Assembly (NCBI RefSeq): GCF_008124605.1
Contig: NZ_VRYN01000007.1
Span: forward strand, 1 to 47,357
Direction of reading: 5' to 3'
Length of the DNA stretch: 47,357 nucleotides
Source of the DNA: Halobacterium salinarum DSM 3754
GTDB taxonomy: Archaea > Halobacteriota > Halobacteria > Halobacteriales > Halobacteriaceae
The notes under the pieces are model-generated. The model searched no databases and had not been told where the DNA came from. It worked only from the letters and a program-made list of their open reading frames with translations. A program made the translations under genes and the position numbers. Below are positions 1 through 9,283 of this stretch, piece by piece (position 1 is the first letter of the stretch; every line of letters begins with the position of its first letter).

Positions 1-93
1 GACAAGCTAAAAATAGCGTGCACCAAGTGTACGGCGCTTTCAATTCGTTAGAGCTGATTCAGCAAACCATGAGAACTCTTCTATGACACCCTC
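1..93 (-). mobile_element. Terminal part of an insertion sequence (ISH1-like by site) inside bop
   Basis: On the minus strand the bop sequence runs to AGTTATTG (93-100) and then switches to non-bop sequence beginning GAGGGTGTCATAGAAG (78-93). The same 16 bp tip occurs at 47266-47281 on the plus strand, so it is an IS end. AGTTATTG in the 5' end of bop is the established ISH1 insertion hot spot. The segment is visibly AT-richer than the chromosome. A subterminal motif, CGTGCACCAAGTGTACGG, lies at 17-34. The transposase gene is outside the window, so the family name is inferred from the site only. Confidence 0.85.
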
Positions 94-107
94 AATAACT
101 CCAACAT
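93..107 (-). pseudogene. bop: Bacterio-opsin gene fragment, first five codons, disrupted by an IS
   Basis: The start codon is the complement of CAT at 105-107, followed by codons for M-L-E-L-L, the known N-terminus of the bacterio-opsin precursor. The reading frame is then lost at the IS junction at position 92/93. Bacterio-opsin is the retinal-binding light-driven proton pump of the purple membrane. With the coding region separated from its promoter, no bacteriorhodopsin is expected from this locus unless the element excises precisely. Confidence 0.9.
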
Positions 108-126
108 GCAACAGTACCTAACGAGG

Positions 127-161
127 ATATGTGTGTAACTCTACGACCCAATCAGTATGGT
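127..161 (-). promoter_or_regulatory. bop promoter: UAS, RY box and TATA element
   Basis: Taking the known start two bases before the ATG (position 109), the UAS ACCATACTGATTGG lies at -52 to -39 (148-161). The TATA region AGAGTTACACACATA lies at -33 to -19 (128-142). An 11 bp alternating purine-pyrimidine tract, TACACACATAT, is centred at -23 (127-137). All three match the published layout of the bop promoter. The promoter is intact although bop itself is broken. Confidence 0.92.
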
Positions 162-350
162 ACGCTCGTGACGGAATTTAGACCGATGAACCGTCAGACA
201 CGGAGCCGACACGCGGATTCCAAACCATACCAAAATAGCGCACCCCACCGAGTGTGTGGGCCACAGCGGCTGTGAAATGCCCGCTGCCTGCTGGTTCAAC
301 GGCCGGCTGGCGTCGAAACACCCGCGGTGAAGTCGATGCGTGCACGCGTG

Positions 351-533
351 TTACCACTCGAAGCGCACGAAAAACTCGTGATCGTTGCGGCACTCAACCG
401 TTCGCACCTTCTGGGTGTCGCTGGTCGGCTCCTGTCGTGACGCAGCCGTGACGGACTTCACGGTTGCACCCATCGGGAGCCCCATCTTCACGTCGGATCC
501 GCACCGCGGACAGTGGAGGTCGGTGATCGGCAC
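351..533 (-). CDS. brz: Brz, small zinc-finger regulator of bop and crtB1
   Basis: This 60-residue protein begins with GTG (complement of 531-533) and lies in the bop-brp intergenic region on the bop strand. Visible zinc ligands are C8-x2-C11 and C48-x3-H52, a CCCH-type pattern. A small zinc-finger protein encoded exactly here in H. salinarum (Brz) is known to activate bop and crtB1 transcription, so the assignment rests on position, length and motif. A TATA-like ATATTTAAG at about 559-568 suggests a nearly leaderless transcript. The coding sequence appears intact, so this regulator should remain functional for crtB1 although bop is disrupted. Confidence 0.9.
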   Translation of the reverse strand: MPITDLHCPRCGSDVKMGLPMGATVKSVTAASRQEPTSDTQKVRTVECRNDHEFFVRFEW

Positions 534-581
534 TACTCCCGGGTGTGTCTTCCCGTTCCTTAAATATTCTCCAGTTCTGAT

Positions 582-615
582 ACCCCACTAGCTTGGGTCT
601 TTTTTGATGCTCGGT
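582..615 (+). promoter_or_regulatory. brp promoter with bop-type UAS
   Basis: ACCCCACTAGCTTG at 582-595 matches the bop UAS consensus ACCcnactagTTnG with one fixed-position mismatch. Counting 39 bases on, as in bop, the start falls on the brp ATG at 634, so the transcript would be leaderless. A T-rich TATA-like stretch lies at 599-606. Bat is known to act through this UAS class. Confidence 0.75.
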
Positions 616-633
616 AGTGACGTGTGTATTCAT

Positions 634-1713
634 ATGAGCAATAGGTCGCAGTTCGTCCCGTCGTGGCTCGTGCCGGAGGCAGCCGGCGACCTCCCGTTGA
701 CCGTGTCGCGGCTGTCACTGCTCGCGCTTGCCGCCGCGTTCGCGGTCGGATACGGCGCGGGCTTCGCGGTCCCACTGGAGGTCCAGGCGGGCGTCTACCT
801 GTTGGGTATGGTCGCGATGAACCTCCCGCACGGCGGCTACGAGCATTTCGAGAACCTGCGGCGACGGGCTGCCTCCTTCCAGGGCAAGTATATCGTCGCC
901 TACCTGGTCGGGATCGCGGCGTTCGGCGCGCTGTTTTTCGTCGCGCCCGTCGCCGGACTGGGGCTGGCAGTCACGGTGGCCGTCGCCAAAGGTGGGTTCG
1001 GTGGCGTGCAGTCGATGGACGCCCTCTACGGAACTGACCATTTGCGCACGCGCCCCCAGCGGTGGCTCGCCGCCGTCGTCCGGGGCGGCGCGGTGATGGT
1101 GGTTCCCATGTTGTTCTGGACGGACGTGTTCTACGCGTTCAGCTCGGTCATGATCTCGATTTTCGACCCCAGCGCCGTGTCGGCGCTCGGCGGTGACATC
1201 GCAACCCGGCGGCTCGTGCTCGGCGGCGGGTACGGGGCGCTCGTGGTCGCACACCTGGGGCTCGGCTACCGGCGGGCGGCCGGCACCGGGTCGTTCCTCG
1301 CCGACGCCGCCGAGACGCTGCTGTTGATCGCGTACTTCGCGCTCGTTCCGGTGGTCATCGCCGTCGGGCTGTACTTCCCGCTGTGGTACTCGGCCCGCCA
1401 GGTGGCCCGATCGTCGGCCGTCGACGACACGGCGATGACGCAGGCAGACGCCACCGGCATGCTTGACGCCCTGGACGCCGACGACCCGGCGCGCGCCACG
1501 CTTGCCTCGTGGGCGGTGCTCATCGTCGGCAGCGTCGCCACGTTCGGCCTGGCGGCCGTGCTCTGGCTGCTGTCCCCACAGCCCCTGGGTGGTGGTGGGA
1601 TCCTCGTGGGCTTGGTCGCGTTCTGGAGCATCTTCGTGAGCATCATCGCGCTCCCGCACGTCGTCGTCGGCGGGTGGCTTGACCGCACTCGCGGCATCTG
1701 GTACGTCCCATGA
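634..1713 (+). CDS. brp: Brp, beta-carotene 15,15'-dioxygenase-type protein for retinal synthesis
   Basis: Brp/Blh proteins cleave beta-carotene to retinal, the chromophore of bacteriorhodopsin. The protein has 359 residues from the ATG at 634. An upstream in-frame ATG at 604 is disfavoured because the UAS spacing puts the transcript start at 634. The chain is almost wholly hydrophobic, with about seven to nine membrane segments. His-containing motifs typical of the family are visible: LPHGGYEH near residues 61-68, YGTDH near 132-136 and LPHVVVGG near the C-terminus. The stop overlaps the bat start (ATGA), so brp and bat form one transcript. Confidence 0.95.
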   Translation: MSNRSQFVPSWLVPEAAGDLPLTVSRLSLLALAAAFAVGYGAGFAVPLEVQAGVYLLGMVAMNLPHGGYEHFENLRRRAASFQGKYIVAYLVGIAAFGALFFVAPVAGLGLAVTVAVAKGGFGGVQSMDALYGTDHLRTRPQRWLAAVVRGGAVMVVPMLFWTDVFYAFSSVMISIFDPSAVSALGGDIATRRLVLGGGYGALVVAHLGLGYRRAAGTGSFLADAAETLLLIAYFALVPVVIAVGLYFPLWYSARQVARSSAVDDTAMTQADATGMLDALDADDPARATLASWAVLIVGSVATFGLAAVLWLLSPQPLGGGGILVGLVAFWSIFVSIIALPHVVVGGWLDRTRGIWYVP

Positions 1714-3734
1714 CGAGCGTCCAGAACACCGAGTCCGAGACCGCCGCCGGCGCGACGACGATCGGCGTGTTGTTCGCGGGCAGCGACCCGGAGACGGGGC
1801 CGGCTGCCTGTGACCTCGACGAGGACGGCCGGTTCGACGTGACCCAGATTCGTGATTTCGTAGCCGCACGCGATCGCGTCGACGATCCCGACATCGACTG
1901 TGTGGTCGCCGTCCACGAACCGGATGGCTTCGACGGCGTGGCGTTCCTGGAAGCAGTCCGACAGACCCACGCGGAGTTCCCGGTCGTGGTCGTGCCGACA
2001 GCCGTCGACGAGGACGTTGCGCGGCGCGCCGTCGACGCCGACGCGACGGGGCTGGTGCCGGCGGTGTCCGAGGACGCGACCGCGGCGATCGCCGACCGCA
2101 TCGAGCAGAGCGCGCCCGCCCACTCCGAGGACACCGAGACGCGGATGCCGATCTCCGACCTGACCGTGGAGTCCGAGCGCCGCCTCAAAGAGCAAGCCCT
2201 CGACGAGGCCCCGATCGGGATCACGATCTCGGACGCCACCGACCCGGAAGAGCCGATCATCTACATCAACGACTCCTTCGAGGACATCACGGGGTATTCG
2301 CCCGACGAGGTCGTGGGCGCGAACCACCGCTTCCTCCAGGGGCCGAAGACCAACGAGGACCGCGTGGCGGAGTTCTGGACCGCGATCACCGAGGACCACG
2401 ACACCCAGGTCGTGTTGCGGAACTACCGCCGCGACGGGTCGCTGTTCTGGAACCAGGTGGACATCAGCCCGATCTACGACGAGGACGGCACCGTCTCACA
2501 CTACGTCGGGTTCCAGATGGACGTCTCCGAGCGCATGGCTGCCCAACAGGAGCTGCAGGGGGAACGCCAGTCCCTGGATCGACTGCTGGACCGCGTGAAC
2601 GGCCTGATGAACGATGTCACGTCGGCGTTAGTGCGGGCGGCCGACCGGGAGGAGATCGAAACTCGGATCACCGACCGCATCGGCACCGGCGGCGAGTACG
2701 CCGGCGCGTGGTTCGGGCGGTACGACGCGACCGAGGACACGATCACGGTCGCGGAGGCAGCGGGGGACTGTGAGGGATGCGACGGCGACGTCTTCGATCT
2801 CGCGTCCGCCGGCGAGGCCGTCGCGTTGCTTCAGGACGTCGTCGAGCAGCGCGAAGCGCTCGTGAGCACGGACGCCGACGGCGTCTCCGGGACCGCCGAC
2901 GGCGACGCGTGCGTGCTGGTGCCGGTCACGTACCGGTCGACGACCTACGGCGTGCTCGCCGTGTCGACCGCCGAACACCGCATCGACGACCGCGAACAGG
3001 TGTTGTTGCGCTCGCTTGGCCGCACGACCGGCGCGTCGATCAACGACGCGTTGACCCGGCGCACCATCGCCACGGACACCGTGTTGAACATCGGCGTCGA
3101 GCTGTCCGATACGGCGCTGTTCCTGGTTGAGTTGGCGGGGGCGACAGACACCACCTTCGAGCAGGAGGCGACGATCGCGGACAGCCAGACGCAGGGCGTG
3201 CTCATGCTCGTGACAACGCCACACGACGACCCCCAGGCGGTCGTCGACACCGCGTTGGGCTACGACGCCGTCCAGGACGCCGAGGTCATCGTCTCGACCG
3301 ACGACGAGAGCGTGGTGCAGTTCGATCTGTCGAGTTCGCCGCTGGTGGACGTGCTCTCCGAGTGTGGGAGCCGGGTCATCCGCATGCACGCCGACCGGAC
3401 GACGCTGGAGCTCGACGTCCGGGTCGGAACCGAGGGGGCGGCGCGGCGGGTGTTGAGCACGTTGCGGGACAAGTACGCCGACGTGGAGCTGGTCGCGTAC
3501 CACGAGGACGATCCCGAGCAGACCCCGCATGGGTTCCGCGAGGAGTTGCGCAACGACCTGACTGACCGGCAGCTCACCGCCCTCCAGAAGGCGTACGTGA
3601 GCGGCTACTTCGAGTGGCCGCGGCGCGCGGAGGGCAAGCAGCTCGCGGAGTCGATGGATATCGTGCCGTCGACGTACCACCAGCATCTGCAGGCTGCCAA
3701 GCAGAAGCTCGTCGGCGCGTTCTTCGAGGAGTGA
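1710..3734 (+). CDS. bat: Bat, bacterio-opsin activator
   Basis: Bat is the transcriptional activator of bop and related genes, proposed to respond to low oxygen and light. The 674-residue chain shows an N-terminal receiver-like region (1-135), a PAS/LOV-type domain (about 155-275), a GAF domain (about 300-430), a linker region, and a C-terminal bacterio-opsin-activator helix-turn-helix (about 610-672, starting LTDRQLTALQKAY). The PAS domain carries NHRFLQGP at 205-212, where photoactive LOV domains have NCRFLQ; here H206 replaces the cysteine. The gene overlaps brp by four bases. The full length shows no break. Confidence 0.95.
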   Translation: MTSVQNTESETAAGATTIGVLFAGSDPETGPAACDLDEDGRFDVTQIRDFVAARDRVDDPDIDCVVAVHEPDGFDGVAFLEAVRQTHAEFPVVVVPTAVDEDVARRAVDADATGLVPAVSEDATAAIADRIEQSAPAHSEDTETRMPISDLTVESERRLKEQALDEAPIGITISDATDPEEPIIYINDSFEDITGYSPDEVVGANHRFLQGPKTNEDRVAEFWTAITEDHDTQVVLRNYRRDGSLFWNQVDISPIYDEDGTVSHYVGFQMDVSERMAAQQELQGERQSLDRLLDRVNGLMNDVTSALVRAADREEIETRITDRIGTGGEYAGAWFGRYDATEDTITVAEAAGDCEGCDGDVFDLASAGEAVALLQDVVEQREALVSTDADGVSGTADGDACVLVPVTYRSTTYGVLAVSTAEHRIDDREQVLLRSLGRTTGASINDALTRRTIATDTVLNIGVELSDTALFLVELAGATDTTFEQEATIADSQTQGVLMLVTTPHDDPQAVVDTALGYDAVQDAEVIVSTDDESVVQFDLSSSPLVDVLSECGSRVIRMHADRTTLELDVRVGTEGAARRVLSTLRDKYADVELVAYHEDDPEQTPHGFREELRNDLTDRQLTALQKAYVSGYFEWPRRAEGKQLAESMDIVPSTYHQHLQAAKQKLVGAFFEE

Positions 3735-3767
3735 CGCGGGCCACACGCCGGCTGTGGCGGATCCGTG

Positions 3768-4196
3768 TCAGTGTTCGAGGAACGTCGTGAGGTTGTCGAC
3801 GGTGGCGGCGGCTTCCCGTTTGTTGTATGCTTTTGCGATCGGGGCCAGCACCGATTCGATGACCGTGTCCGGCAGGTCGTACTCGGCCTCGTAGGTCAGC
3901 GACGTGGTGTCGTCGCCGGAGAGCCGGTACGTGATGGTGCCGTCGATGGCGCCCGTCAGCTCCTGGACGAGCCGGCGCTCGGGCACGCGTTCGATGTCTT
4001 CGACAGTGCCGACGAGTTCGACGCCGGCGAGTTTGTATCGGTATTTGGCTCGTTTGCCGCCACTGGCAAGCGCTTCGACATCCGTGACGGTGATGAGTCC
4101 GGGCGTGATCTTGACGTGGTTCCGAGGGTCATCGAGGAAGGAAAAGACGTCGCCGGGCGGCGCGTCGATTGTGGCCTGTTGTTCGACCGTGAACAT
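3768..4196 (-). CDS. SRPBCC (START/polyketide cyclase-like) protein
   Basis: The 142-residue protein starts MFTVEQQATIDAPPGDVFSF, the usual opening of SRPBCC fold proteins, which bind small hydrophobic ligands. It continues with alternating beta strands and ends in a long helix. The ATG at 4196 fits the family start; the frame stays open upstream but is not protein-like. It converges on bat with a 33 bp gap. Its promoter resembles the bop promoter closely (see 4247-4280), so a role linked to purple-membrane or retinal/carotenoid metabolism is a reasonable inference. The ligand is unknown. Confidence 0.85.
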   Translation of the reverse strand: MFTVEQQATIDAPPGDVFSFLDDPRNHVKITPGLITVTDVEALASGGKRAKYRYKLAGVELVGTVEDIERVPERRLVQELTGAIDGTITYRLSGDDTTSLTYEAEYDLPDTVIESVLAPIAKAYNKREAAATVDNLTTFLEH

Positions 4197-4246
4197 GGAT
4201 GAGTGGTGTGGAGTTGGCGTCGTCCGACGTGTGGATGATGGTGGCG

Positions 4247-4280
4247 TGGGTGGGTAACTACAGCCCCCAATCAATTTGGT
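4247..4280 (-). promoter_or_regulatory. bop-like promoter upstream of the SRPBCC gene
   Basis: On the minus strand ACCAAATTGATTGG (4267-4280) matches the bop UAS ACCATACTGATTGG at 12 of 14 bases. At exactly the same spacing downstream both carry AGTTACNCAC. By analogy the start would lie near 4228, giving a leader of about 32 bases before the ATG at 4196. Confidence 0.65.
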
Positions 4281-4312
4281 AGAAACTCCCACATGTCGCG
4301 GCACGCTCGAAC

Positions 4313-4346
4313 ACCCAAACACATGGGGGATGGGGCTTTAGCATTG
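4313..4346 (+). promoter_or_regulatory. UAS-like motif upstream of the AAA ATPase gene
   Basis: ACCCAAACACATGGGG at 4313-4328 matches ACCCAAACTGATGGGG upstream of crtB1 (7123-7138) at 14 of 16 bases. A TATA-like CTTTAG lies at 4336-4341. By bop-like spacing the start would be near 4365, leaving a leader of about 22 bases that includes a GGAGG-like ribosome binding site before 4387. Confidence 0.55.
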
Positions 4347-4386
4347 AGCGGCAACCTGTAGGTGTGCTACCGGAGGCAGGAGGCGG

Positions 4387-6462
4387 ATGACGCGGGTGCG
4401 TGTCACCCTCAGAGACGCCGCCGACAGGACAGCCGACGCGCCGGCTGTCGGTCCGGGCCAGCTCAGTTTCACCGCCGAAACCCGCCAGCAGATCGGGGTG
4501 GCGGAGGGCGACGCCGTCACCGTCACCGGCAGCGAGGACACCGTTGCGACTGTCGGCCCCGACACCACGGCCATCGCGGCCAGCAGCGGGCTCGCGGGCG
4601 CGGATGTGCTGCGGAACGTCGGCCCGACGGACACGGTCACGGTTGCGCCCGCCGATCCCAGTCCGGCAGCCGAGCTCACCGTGGCACCGGCCACGTCGTC
4701 GACCCTGGAGGGCGACGCCGACGCGCTTGCACGCGCGCTCGCCGGGCGTCACCTGGTCGCGGACGACCGCATCGCCGTGCCGCTGTTCAGCGGCACCGTC
4801 GTGGTGACTCTCGACGTCGAGGACACGACGCCGGGCGGTCCCGTCACCGTCACCGCCGACACGGCGATCACGCTCACGGGCCACGCCGCCGACAGCGGGC
4901 ACGCGGACGCGGAGCACGCGACGCCGGCCGACACCAGGGTCGGCGGGCTCGACGACGAACGCGGTGCGCTCCGGCGGCTCGTCGTCGCGCCGCTGGTCGC
5001 CGATTCGTACGCCGCCATCGGCGTGCGGCCGCCGGCCGGCGTGCTCGTCCACGGGCCGGCAGGCACCGGGAAGACAACGCTCGTGCGTGCGGTGGCGGCG
5101 GCCGCCGACCTGGCGGTCGAGTCGGTGGCCCCCGAGGACGCCGGCGACCGGGACGCGCTGGCGGCGGTGTTGGACGCCGCCCGGGACGCCGAGCCGGGCT
5201 GCGTGGTGTTCGTGGAGTCGCTGGCCGCGGCCGCCCCCGACCCGACGGCGGACGGCGCCAGCGGTCGCGGGTCGCCGTCGGCGCTCGGGTGGCTGCTCGA
5301 CCGCGTCCGGGGCCACGACACAGTCGTGGTGGTCGGGGAGACCACCGATCCCGACGCCGTTGATCCGGCGCTCCGGCGGGGCGGGCGTTTCGACGCGGAG
5401 GTGCGCGTCGGCGTGCCTGATCCGGCCGCTCGGCGCGCCATCCTCGACGTACACACGGACGGCGTTCGGCTCGCCGACGCGGTGTCGCTGGACGCGGTGG
5501 CCGACCGAACCCACGGGTACACCGGCGCGGACCTGACCGCCGTACTCGTCGACGCCGCGACCAGGGCTGCCGGCAGCGCGGCCGGCCCGCCGGTGATCCG
5601 CCAGCGCGACCTCGAAGCCGCCCTGGACGCCGTGGGTCCGTCCACGCTCCGCGACGCGTCGGTGCAGACGCCGACGACCACCTACCAGGACATCGGCGGG
5701 CTCGACCGCGCGAAACGCGAGGTGGTGCGGACCGTCGAGTGGCCCCAGCGGTATCCGGCGTTGTTCGAGCGCTTGGACGCGGCCGCGCCGACCGGCGTGT
5801 TGTTACACGGGCCGCCCGGAACCGGGAAAACGATGCTCGCGAAGGCCGTGGCGGCGTCCACGGACGCGAACTTCCTGTCCGTCGACGGCCCGGAGTTGAT
5901 GAACCGCTACGTGGGCGAGAGCGAGCGCGGCGTTCGGGACCTGTTCGAGCGCGCGCGGCGGCTCGCGCCCGCCGTGGTGTTCCTCGACGAGGTTGATTCG
6001 CTCGCGCCGGCCCGCCACGACACCGACACGGGGGCGTCCGAGCGCGTCGTCTCCCAGCTGCTGACCGAGCTAGACGGGCTGTCGCCCCGCGGTTCGGTTG
6101 CGGTGTTGGCGGCGACGAACCGTCGGGAGTCGGTGGACCCTGCGCTGCTTCGCCCGGGGCGGATCGAAACCCAGGTCGCGGTTCCGATCCCGGACCAGGA
6201 CGCCCGGGCCGCGATCTTCGAGGTGCAACTCGACGGCGTGGCGACCGGACGCATCGACACCACCGCGCTGGCCGCCGCCACGACCGGCTACACGGGCAGC
6301 GACATCGCGGGTGTCGTCCGCGAGGGTGCGCTGTTGGCGATGGAGGACCACCTCCGCGAGACGGAGTTCGACGCCACCGACGCCAGCGGGCTGGTCGTTA
6401 CCCAGCGCCACCTGCGCCGCGCCATCGAGACGACGGCCCCGTCGGTCGACGGCGCGGGGTGA
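4387..6462 (+). CDS. Two-domain AAA ATPase of the Cdc48/VAT type
   Basis: This 691-residue protein has a Cdc48-like N-domain (1-170) followed by two AAA modules. D1 has Walker A at 223-230 (GPAGTGKT), but its Walker B position reads FVES (E277-S278) instead of the usual hydrophobic-DE, so hydrolysis there is doubtful. D2 is canonical: Walker A 475-482 (GPPGTGKT), Walker B FLDE (D534-E535) and an intact second region of homology. Family members unfold or remodel protein complexes. The start is supported by a GGAGG-like site just upstream. The gene sits between bat and crtB1 and has a crtB1-like upstream motif, suggesting co-regulation with the purple-membrane genes. Confidence 0.92.
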
Positions 6463-6506
6463 TGGTTTGGCACATCGTTGAAGACGCCGCCGGTCGAAGC
6501 GGCGGT

Positions 6507-6674
6507 ATGGAGAAGCAGGATCTCGTCGTCGCGGTGCATGTGATGGTTGCCGTCGCCATCGCGGCGTTCGGACTCGTCCGGATCTCGCGGGGCCAGCGGG
6601 TGCCGGGCGCGCTGAACGTCGGGTTCGCGATCGTCGTGGTTGGCGTTGGGGTGTACATGCGCCAGTTGGTGTGA
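6507..6674 (+). CDS. Small two-helix membrane protein
   Basis: The 55-residue protein starts MEKQDLVVAVHV and has two hydrophobic segments (about 6-22 and 31-48) with a short basic turn (RISRGQR) between them. The frame is open back to 6459, overlapping the ATPase stop, but ATG 6507 gives a more natural membrane protein. It lies 44 bp after the ATPase on the same strand and is likely co-transcribed with it. Function unknown. Confidence 0.7.
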   Translation: MEKQDLVVAVHVMVAVAIAAFGLVRISRGQRVPGALNVGFAIVVVGVGVYMRQLV

Positions 6675-6690
6675 ACGACGCCACGCCGAG

Positions 6691-6724
6691 GGGCCACCAG
6701 TTTGGTCCGTGTTTGAAACGGGCG
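6691..6724 (+). promoter_or_regulatory. Weak UAS-like motif before the coiled-coil zinc protein
   Basis: GGGCCACCAGTTTGG at 6691-6705 keeps the ACnAGTTnG half of the bop UAS but lacks the leading ACC. A TATA-like TTTGAAAC lies at 6713-6720. Adding the bop spacing of 39 bases puts a start at about 6743, on the GTG at 6742, which fits a leaderless gene. Confidence 0.4.
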
Positions 6725-6741
6725 AGCGCCTACCACTAGCT

Positions 6742-7110
6742 GTGAGCGAAGACGCCGACAACTCGGGAGAGCAGGCGGCGGAGGCGACCGACACCCAAGA
6801 CCACACGGAGACGGACGCCGAATCGGAAGCCAGCGAGGCCACGGAGCGCAGTGAGGACGTCGTCGTCGATCTCGATTCGGCGGCGGCCTACGAGCAACGC
6901 GTCGACGAGCTGGAGGCGGTCGTCGAGGAGCAACGCGAGCAGATCGAGGAGTTAGAGGACCTGATGCTCGATCTGTCGGTGCGCGCGGCCGACGACAAGG
7001 GGATGGGGGTGTGTCCGGAGTGTCACGGTCCGGTTGAGAAGATCGATCCGTGGTTCGGCGCGACCCGCATCGAATGTCGGCGCTGCGGGGAAGTGTACCA
7101 CGAGTACTAG
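6742..7110 (+). CDS. Acidic coiled-coil protein with C-terminal zinc ribbon
   Basis: From the GTG at 6742 the product has 122 residues. The first 45 are very acidic and low-complexity, residues about 50-80 form a strong heptad coiled coil (VDELEAVVEEQREQIEELED), and the C-terminus carries two zinc knuckles, CPECHG and CRRCGE. This looks like a dimeric adaptor or nucleic-acid-binding protein, but no function is known. An earlier in-frame start at 6640 overlaps the previous gene and is unlikely. It is the last gene before crtB1. Confidence 0.75.
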   Translation: MSEDADNSGEQAAEATDTQDHTETDAESEASEATERSEDVVVDLDSAAAYEQRVDELEAVVEEQREQIEELEDLMLDLSVRAADDKGMGVCPECHGPVEKIDPWFGATRIECRRCGEVYHEY

Positions 7111-7122
7111 CGCACCTAAAGC

Positions 7123-7156
7123 ACCCAAACTGATGGGGTGTCGGTTTGAGGCGCGA
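7123..7156 (+). promoter_or_regulatory. crtB1 upstream activator motif
   Basis: ACCCAAACTGATGGGG at 7123-7138 shares ACTGATnGG with the bop UAS, with one extra base after the leading ACC. crtB1 is known to be controlled by Bat and Brz. The inferred start, 39 bases on, is near 7175, about 45 bases before the ATG at 7221. Confidence 0.6.
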
Positions 7157-7220
7157 AACGAGTGTAGGTCCACACAGGTCGTATTGCGCGTCAGGCAACG
7201 CCGCACACGCACTGTCATCC

Positions 7221-8189
7221 ATGGTCTCACCGGAACACCTACGACGGAGCAAGGCAGTCCAGCGCCGCACCGGTCGGACGTTCCACATCGCCACCCGGTT
7301 CCTCCCCGAGCGCGTCCGCTACCCCACGTACGTCCTGTACGCGTTCTTCCGGCTCACCGACGAGATCGTCGACGACGAGGCACCTGGGCCGCCCGACGAA
7401 CAGCGCCGCCGCCTGGCACACGTGCGGGCGGCCGCTCTCGGTGATCGCGACCCCGACGACCCCGTGCTTGCGGCGTTCGCCGCGCTCCGCGAGGACCACG
7501 ACATCCCCCGCGAGGAGGTCACCACGTTCATCGACGCCATGCAACAGGACGTCGACACCGCGCGCTACCGGAGCCACGACGACCTGGCGGAGTACCTCCG
7601 TGGGTCGTCGGTCGCGGTCGGATACATGATGCTGTCCATCATGGACGCCCCGGAACCGGAGCGCGCGCGTCCACACGCGGCGTCGCTGGGGGAGGCGTTC
7701 CAGCTCACGAACTTCCTGCGGGACGTCCGGGAGGACGTACTCGACTACGACCGCATCTACCTGCCCAGTCAGACCCTGGCCGCCCACGGCGCGAGCCACG
7801 ACGACATCGCCGCCCTATCGGCCACCCCGCAGGTCCGGGACGCGATCCGTGCCGAACTCGACCGCACCGAGCGCCTCTACCGCCACGGCGTCGCGGGCAT
7901 CGAGCACCTGCCCGCCGACTGCCAGTTCCCGGTGCTCGCGGCGGCCGTGATGTACGCCGACCAGCACCGCCTGATCCGCGCCCAGGACTGTGACGTGCTC
8001 TCACAGCGGCCCACGCTGACGCTGCGGCGGCGGCTCAGCGTCGTTGCGCGAACGTGGCTGCGCTGGCGGGTCAGCGACGACCCGACTGCGGTGTTCCACG
8101 CGGTCACCGGGATCGGGGAGCCCGACGCCGGTGGCGTGCCCGAGCAGTCGTTTGCGGTGCGGGAGTCCCAGCCCACGCGGGCGGACTGA
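7221..8189 (+). CDS. crtB1: Phytoene synthase
   Basis: This enzyme condenses two geranylgeranyl diphosphates to phytoene, the first committed carotenoid step towards beta-carotene, retinal and bacterioruberin. The 322-residue chain from ATG 7221 contains both Asp-rich magnesium-binding motifs of the trans-isoprenyl synthase fold: DEIVD at 47-51 and DVRED at 168-172. Length is normal for the family. The open frame extends to a TTG at 7146, which overlaps the predicted promoter and is rejected. It closes the bop-brp-bat neighbourhood. Confidence 0.93.
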   Translation: MVSPEHLRRSKAVQRRTGRTFHIATRFLPERVRYPTYVLYAFFRLTDEIVDDEAPGPPDEQRRRLAHVRAAALGDRDPDDPVLAAFAALREDHDIPREEVTTFIDAMQQDVDTARYRSHDDLAEYLRGSSVAVGYMMLSIMDAPEPERARPHAASLGEAFQLTNFLRDVREDVLDYDRIYLPSQTLAAHGASHDDIAALSATPQVRDAIRAELDRTERLYRHGVAGIEHLPADCQFPVLAAAVMYADQHRLIRAQDCDVLSQRPTLTLRRRLSVVARTWLRWRVSDDPTAVFHAVTGIGEPDAGGVPEQSFAVRESQPTRAD

Positions 8190-8190
8190 G

Positions 8191-8679
8191 CTATCGGCCG
8201 CCGCGCAGCAGCTCTGAGATGCGATCCCGGATGCGGTCGTGGTCGCCCAGCCGGAGGTAGTACGCGCCGGTGCCGTCCTCGTAGTAGTCCTCGATCTCGC
8301 GCTCGACGGTGAACCCGAGGTTCCGGTAGAACCCGATGGCGTTCTCGTTGGTCATGCGGGCGTGACAGGAGGCCTTGCCGGCGTCGGCGGCGACGGACGC
8401 GACGAGTTGCTCGCCGAAGTTCTCGCCGCGATAGTCCGGCGCCACCGCGAGAAACAGGATGTAGCCGTCGGATCGCGCCGCCGCGAACCCGACCAGCTCG
8501 TCGTCACCGCCGCCGAGAAAACAGTGCACTGCGGCCCGTCGATAGGCGTTCGCGAAGAACCCACGGCGTTGTTTCAGGAGCCCCTCGTGCTCCCGGATGT
8601 GTTCTTTCAGCGCCCACGCCGCCTCAAGGTAGTCACCGCTTCCCGGGGGCACTACCTGTTTGTCCACCGTGACGCTCAC
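8191..8679 (-). CDS. GNAT family N-acetyltransferase
   Basis: The 162-residue protein starts at GTG 8679 (MSVTVDKQVV). The acetyl-CoA binding motif lies in the stretch LAVAPDYRGENFGEQLV, with the typical R/Q-x-x-G-x-G/A pattern. It is followed by NENAIGFYRNLGF, the C-terminal signature of RimI-like enzymes. It probably acetylates a protein or small-molecule amine; the substrate cannot be told. It converges on crtB1 one base from its stop and diverges from archease, whose start is 130 bp away. Confidence 0.85.
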   Translation of the reverse strand: MSVTVDKQVVPPGSGDYLEAAWALKEHIREHEGLLKQRRGFFANAYRRAAVHCFLGGGDDELVGFAAARSDGYILFLAVAPDYRGENFGEQLVASVAADAGKASCHARMTNENAIGFYRNLGFTVEREIEDYYEDGTGAYYLRLGDHDRIRDRISELLRGGR

Positions 8680-8809
8680 CCCAGAGTGTTGCGTCGCGAC
8701 GACTATAATTCCACCGTCCCGCACGGGGAACCGGGGCGTCGAAATCCTTTCGGGCGTCCTGGCCGTTCGCAGACCCAATGCATACCATCGAACCAGGCGG
8801 GGGCGGCGC

Positions 8810-9283
8810 GTGACGTTCGCGTTACGCGAGCACACCGCCGACATCGCCGTGGCGGCGGCCGCCGACAGTCTCGGCGGCGTGTTCGGCGCGGTCGCGGACG
8901 GCATGGCGGCGGCGATGATCGACGACGACGTGCCGGCCACCGGCGCGCAACTCACGGTGTCCGAGCGCGCGGAATCACGGGAGGCGGCGCTGTACGATTA
9001 CCTCACCCGGCTGCTCTACGAGCGCGACGTGCAAGGCGTGTTGCCCGTGGACAACGCCGCAACCGTCGATGAACCCACCGGCGGCGGTGACTGGCGCGTC
9101 ACAGCGTCAGCCCGAGGGGTGCCACTGGACGCGGTCCACGCCCGCGACCTCAAGGCGGTGACGTACTCGGAGATGCAGCTCACGCCGCCCGGCGGCCCCA
9201 CCCACGCCGAGGCGGGGACGCCACCCGACGCCGTTCGCGAGCACCCCGACGACTGGGCCGCATACGTCGTTTTCGACGTGTGA
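8810..9283 (+). CDS. Archease, RtcB-activating protein
   Basis: Archease stimulates guanylation and turnover of the RNA ligase RtcB. The 157-residue protein from GTG 8810 shows the family signatures: REHTADIAV near the N-terminus, KAVTYSEMQL in the middle, and a C-terminal VVFDV. Length is typical. rtcB lies about 1.1 kb downstream on the same strand with only a DoxX-family gene between, consistent with a shared tRNA-splicing or RNA-repair role. Confidence 0.92.
   Translation: MTFALREHTADIAVAAAADSLGGVFGAVADGMAAAMIDDDVPATGAQLTVSERAESREAALYDYLTRLLYERDVQGVLPVDNAATVDEPTGGGDWRVTASARGVPLDAVHARDLKAVTYSEMQLTPPGGPTHAEAGTPPDAVREHPDDWAAYVVFDV

Follow-up and report, generated by a model that had tools for sequence, protein, structure and literature searches.

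In Halobacterium salinarum R1/NRC-1 the gene blp (bop-linked protein) lies between bat and bac, and published work describes it as adjoining bat, being co-regulated with bop at low oxygen and having no assigned function. Co-regulation with bop was reported by Gropp et al. 1994 (as cited in PMC2253796), and deletion of bat has been shown to lower blp (DasSarma 2012, as cited in PMC6212597). The blp transcript becomes 3.2-fold more abundant in stationary phase (PMC3225822), and polysome data place blp among seven genes whose translation is specifically repressed in stationary phase despite the rise in transcript (a factor of 2.5 versus 0.6; PMC3225822). A 2006 review lists UAS sites near brp and crtB1, and blp is not named there. 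Beyond Halobacterium, a bop cluster has been described in Halorubrum TP009 (PMC1885257), and in Halorubrum bop clusters an SRPBCC protein is likewise encoded beside bat, with bop, brp and bac; however, it is only 40-48% identical to the Halobacterium protein and its gene lies in tandem behind bat rather than convergent with it. Among START proteins, StARD3 and the silkworm CBP are known from the literature to bind carotenoids. In the accessible literature, which covers Gropp et al. 1994 through citation only, no description of the fold of Blp, of its promoter class or of a wider family was found.

The window analysed here is a stretch of 47,357 nt from H. salinarum DSM 3754 (contig NZ_VRYN01000007.1), in which the features listed in Table 1 were located. 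An earlier, preliminary description of this DNA had noticed an SRPBCC gene behind a bop-like promoter and regarded it as uncharacterised. The gene is blp (OE3100F/VNG1463G) by sequence and by position beside bat, and the published RT-PCR primers for OE3100F match the window exactly at 4012-3993 and 3917-3935; it has thus been named and studied, and "uncharacterised" holds for its biochemical function only. The same description was right to expect co-induction with bacteriorhodopsin, which is already published in the form of the co-regulation, the bat-deletion effect and the 3.2-fold rise. It had also proposed a comparison in brz mutants, but dependence on Brz is not supported; the published microarray gives a change of -1.6-fold in the brz mutant, with blp classed as non-regulated, and this excludes Brz as an equal regulator of blp. 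The regulation of blp is largely known. What is added here is the predicted START fold, a promoter class with two members, and the more widespread linkage of the family to retinal and rhodopsin genes.

Table 1. Genes and promoter elements around blp, in window coordinates
Feature	Position	Strand	Remarks
bop, first codons	93..107	-	followed by insertion sequence (window 1-92)
bop box AGTTACACAC	131..140	-	7 nt after bop UAS
bop UAS ACCATACTGATTGG	148..161	-	reference site
brp UAS-like element ACCCCACTAGCTTG	582..595	+	then TTTTGAT
brp, beta-carotene cleavage to retinal (BCD family)	622..1713	+	PF15461, E 3e-72
bat, transcriptional activator (PAS, GAF, BAT, HTH_10)	1710..3734	+	convergent with blp
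blp (OE3100F/VNG1463G), START/SRPBCC protein, 142 aa	3771..4196	-	PF10604, E 4e-13; matched by published primers
blp transcription start (predicted)	4228	-	32-nt leader; from bop geometry
blp TATA-position box AGTTACCCAC	4250..4259	-	7 nt after UAS; box and spacing as in bop
blp UAS ACCAAATTGATTGG	4267..4280	-	12/14 identical to bop UAS
bac UAS-like element CCCAAACACATGGG	4314..4327	+	separate element, then CTTTAG; 5' of divergent bac
bac, Cdc48-like AAA ATPase	4387..6462	+	PF00004, E 1e-62; divergent from blp
crtB1 UAS CCCAAACTGATGGG	7124..7137	+	3 mismatches to bop UAS; no AGTTAC box

Beyond its first codons the bop gene itself is disrupted by an insertion sequence (window 1-107; L007 1-130), whose inverted ends GAGGGTGTCATAGAAG are 16 bp long and whose target duplication, GTTATT, is 6 bp. 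The starts of two contigs (C7 and C1) both carry GAGGGTGTCATAGAAG beside GTTATT, the contig break falling within the insertion sequence, and a search of the genome for another complete bop gave none. The strain, or the clone that was sequenced, is probably purple-membrane negative. Since bop is split, induction of blp in this genome could take place with no bacteriorhodopsin being made. A scan of window positions 1-9000 for Rfam families found none.

The region 5' of blp contains a UAS close in sequence to ACCNNACTGATTGG, as in bop regulon promoters of the Bat/UAS type, and, at the spacing found in bop, a bop-type box; the boxes of bop and blp have AGTTACNCAC in common. The preliminary description had reported this likeness, with 12 of 14 UAS bases and the box at the same distance, and both are confirmed. 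The UAS alone is weak evidence: at up to three mismatches it was found four times in the window against 0.91 expected, the blp site being second best and that of crtB1, with three mismatches, next. The UAS and box at fixed spacing are not a product of chance. The composite pattern (ACCNNANTGATTGG-N7-AGTTACNCAC, up to three mismatches) occurs twice in the window, at bop and blp, against 0.00 in 100 shuffles, and across the whole 2.36-Mb genome it was found in the same two places only, 5' of bop and blp. A position weight matrix built from the bop promoters of eight other genomes, with no blp promoter and without the bop promoter of this genome, scored the 94,654 positions of the window with bop first (40.2), the blp site second (20.0) and the next best place at 5.3. 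The earlier statement that the match is stronger than that of any other neighbour is accordingly true for the composite. A likeness by chance is ruled out by the uniqueness of the composite in the genome, the shuffles, the matrix rank and the run of the pattern over ten genomes given below, and the site is almost certainly a genuine bop-type promoter.

The box lies 53 bases from the ATG at 4196 on the minus strand and, if the geometry of bop applies, transcription of blp would begin near 4228. The two promoters differ in the predicted leader, of 2 nt in bop and 32 nt in blp, and in that Brz is strongly needed for bop and hardly for blp. In the blp leader no significant fold (z 0.77) and no hairpin that would explain the published translational repression were found. 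The possibility that the UAS serves mainly the divergent bac gene is excluded by its distance of 107-120 nt from the bac start and by its orientation towards blp with an AGTTAC box, and bac has an element of its own (Table 1). Elements comparable to the latter are found 5' of bac in relatives.

Two promoter forms can be recognised in the cluster, a division which was made by eye. The form of bop and blp is UAS-N7-(A/G)GTTAC, whereas brp, crtB1 and bac have the UAS-like element in common with blp and, instead of AGTTAC, a TTTTGA-like box after it. Promoter form does not track Brz dependence, which in published data applies to bop and crtB1 and not to brp and blp.

The bop-type promoter is conserved 5' of orthologous blp genes in other species. 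In ten loci with a blp orthologue, the blp promoter ranked first or second by the matrix in seven (the locus described here and six of nine others), with weaker ranks in G090 (13), G248 (17) and G147 (6). The 7-nt spacing could be aligned in all ten orthologous promoters, the box being degenerate in some. When a relaxed pattern was applied to the ten genomes, 11 matches with no more than one mismatch were obtained, comprising seven bop and four blp promoters and no other sites. In Halobacterium sp. TGN-42-S1 (G012) the UAS is identical at 14/14 positions and is followed by N7 and AGTTACCCCC, whereas the remainder of the intergenic region around it has mostly diverged.

In a sample of 391 haloarchaeal genomes, ten carry a strict Blp orthologue, and these are set apart by bit score (at least 221, against 132 or less for all others), both statements applying among the matches listed. 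In all ten genomes blp is convergent with bat, while the distance to bop is no more than about 6 kb in nine, the bop of the present genome being counted by reading across the contig break, and bac is divergent from blp in nine. One locus (L060, in G301) retains bat and blp with a weak brp-like match, and bop and bac are missing nearby, which suggests that the bat-blp pair can outlive bop. More distant family members are found in other arrangements, for which genus labels such as Halorubrum-like were inferred from gene order and published clusters. In Halorubrum-like genomes (group g10) blp follows bat in tandem, and brp, bac and bop are often present too. The convergent order of brp, bat and blp occurs with a rhodopsin gene in one group (f2 g31) and with brp in G084 (f2 g41); in another (f2 g23) bat, brp, blp and a sensory-rhodopsin-like gene lie on one strand, and in a third (f3 g56) bat, blp, rhodopsin and brp are found together. 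Rows of bat, brp, a blp-like gene and a sensory-rhodopsin-like gene on the same strand are seen in another family of haloarchaea at L142, L148, L150 and L154; the L148 copy has an in-frame TGA. Four bop clusters (L058, L059, L063 and L065) have a second, divergent rhodopsin gene between bac and a zinc-finger gene.

In a tree of 99 family members the linked genes are spread over several clades; by the criteria used, 46 members are unlinked, and inspection by eye of the neighbours of a few of these showed genes that looked unrelated, with no carotenoid theme. Two BCD (brp/blh) genes are present in all ten genomes with a strict orthologue. At least two BCD genes were counted in 93 of 120 genomes with a Blp-family protein versus 22 of 271 without one and, within the Halorubrum-like group, in 28 of 29 versus 3 of 16, again among the matches listed; common descent and the transfer of the cluster as one unit inflate the P values of these comparisons, which are a matter of association and not of function.

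With regard to the protein, Blp matches PF10604 (Polyketide_cyc2) at 50.3 bits against a curated cut-off of 27.4, and a Pfam scan at E 0.001 returned only PF10604 and PF03364, with no match to the CoxG model PF06240. NCBIfam gave nothing meaningful, and a search of PDB sequences gave chance matches only. Blp was modelled with AlphaFold from five sequences, and the model is good only for the best of five (pLDDT 80.7, pTM 0.76; the four others 70.5 to 33.8). The modelled order of a strand, two helices, six strands and a long C-terminal helix is the START order, and Blp is predicted from this helix-grip model to be a START/SRPBCC protein. Its structural neighbours include APE2225 of the COXG family (2ns9, Z 17.0), the START protein MSMEG_0129 (Z 17.0) and Mycobacterium smegmatis CoxG (8uds, Z 15.7), which makes the model CoxG-like as well, and it also matches many ligand-binding START proteins. 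The resemblance to CoxG and START proteins (PDB 8uds, 2ns9 and 5z8o) is one of fold (Z 15.7-17), whereas identity is 12-19%, the gene neighbours are other ones and the CoxG Pfam model is unmatched. The fold by itself does not tell the identity of the ligand.

It is plausible, in view of the START-like fold and the linkage to brp and rhodopsins, that Blp binds retinal, a carotenoid or a lipid. The sequence of events proposed is that Bat, directly or via partners, may act at the blp UAS, that an alternative set of basal factors would read the AGTTAC box, and that blp would rise with bop under low oxygen. Blp, as a putative small helix-grip protein of a retinal-rhodopsin module, would then bind a hydrophobic isoprenoid (possibly retinal, beta-carotene or lipid) and may move or present it between the retinal-synthesising enzymes of the membrane and new opsin, serving chromophore supply or membrane assembly. 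The reading as a whole, of a bop-type, Bat-dependent promoter and an isoprenoid-carrying Blp, is considered probable, if not strongly so. Carriage of retinal, carotenoid or isoprenoid is put forward tentatively, as a real possibility raised by the fold and by genetic linkage with brp as well as with rhodopsins of more than one kind. Several observations count against it. The START fold fits enzymes, lipid carriers, receptors and anchors alike; about half of the family members inspected are not near brp or rhodopsin; ancestry, and the spread of the cluster as a whole by transfer, confound the co-occurrence among genomes; and the orthologue in G301 keeps the bat-blp pair without bop or bac nearby. 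In addition, translational repression in stationary phase (2.5) is odd for a protein which would then be needed in bulk.

The presence of CoxG proteins among the best fold matches raises the alternative that Blp, bound to membrane lipid, keeps a soluble partner at the membrane (Bat, the Bac AAA chaperone or a biosynthetic enzyme) with no carriage of chromophore, much as CoxG-like proteins of Sulfolobus bring a soluble dehydrogenase to the membrane (PMC11962113). The constancy of bat, the most constant neighbour of blp, would suit such a role, but PF06240 is absent from the Pfam scan, the 142 residues of Blp include no C-terminal extension and no dehydrogenase gene adjoins blp; a role of this kind appears unlikely. 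The same linkage to bat, the most conserved of all and kept where bop is absent nearby (L060 and several Halorubrum-like loci), could also indicate a ligand-binding co-regulator through which Bat is informed of the retinal or carotenoid status, and the START fold does include hormone receptors such as PYL. This is quite unlikely, as Blp is without a DNA-binding part and the inheritance of a single cluster would account for the linkage just as well. An enzyme of the polyketide cyclase/hydroxylase type, modifying a carotenoid or lipid, is called to mind by the Pfam name Polyketide_cyc2 and by the aromatase/cyclases among the fold matches, but is improbable, as that name spans many non-enzymes and, beside brp and crtB1, the pathway lacks no known step. 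Lastly, that the promoter likeness is a remnant or an accident which does not drive blp is most improbable in the face of a composite unique in the genome, the second rank by matrix, matches at bop and blp only in ten genomes, and the published Bat-dependent, growth-phase expression of blp.

For the proposed isoprenoid carrier, a wider and at present doubtful extension is that Blp founds a haloarchaeal START-fold family of carriers dedicated to retinal (or beta-carotene), acting between Brp and several kinds of rhodopsin and made in step with opsin from a promoter type confined to bop and blp. To our knowledge, no archaeal retinoid-handling carrier has been known before, and Blp would be the first. 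The gene has been a named, co-regulated gene with no assigned function since 1994. In several genera one promoter form is common to bop and blp and to no other gene, which implies that production of the opsin is matched by that of Blp; this form offers a clean test of the basal factors which read the AGTTAC box. If Blp does carry retinal or carotenoid, this would explain how a water-insoluble chromophore reaches new opsin in archaea.
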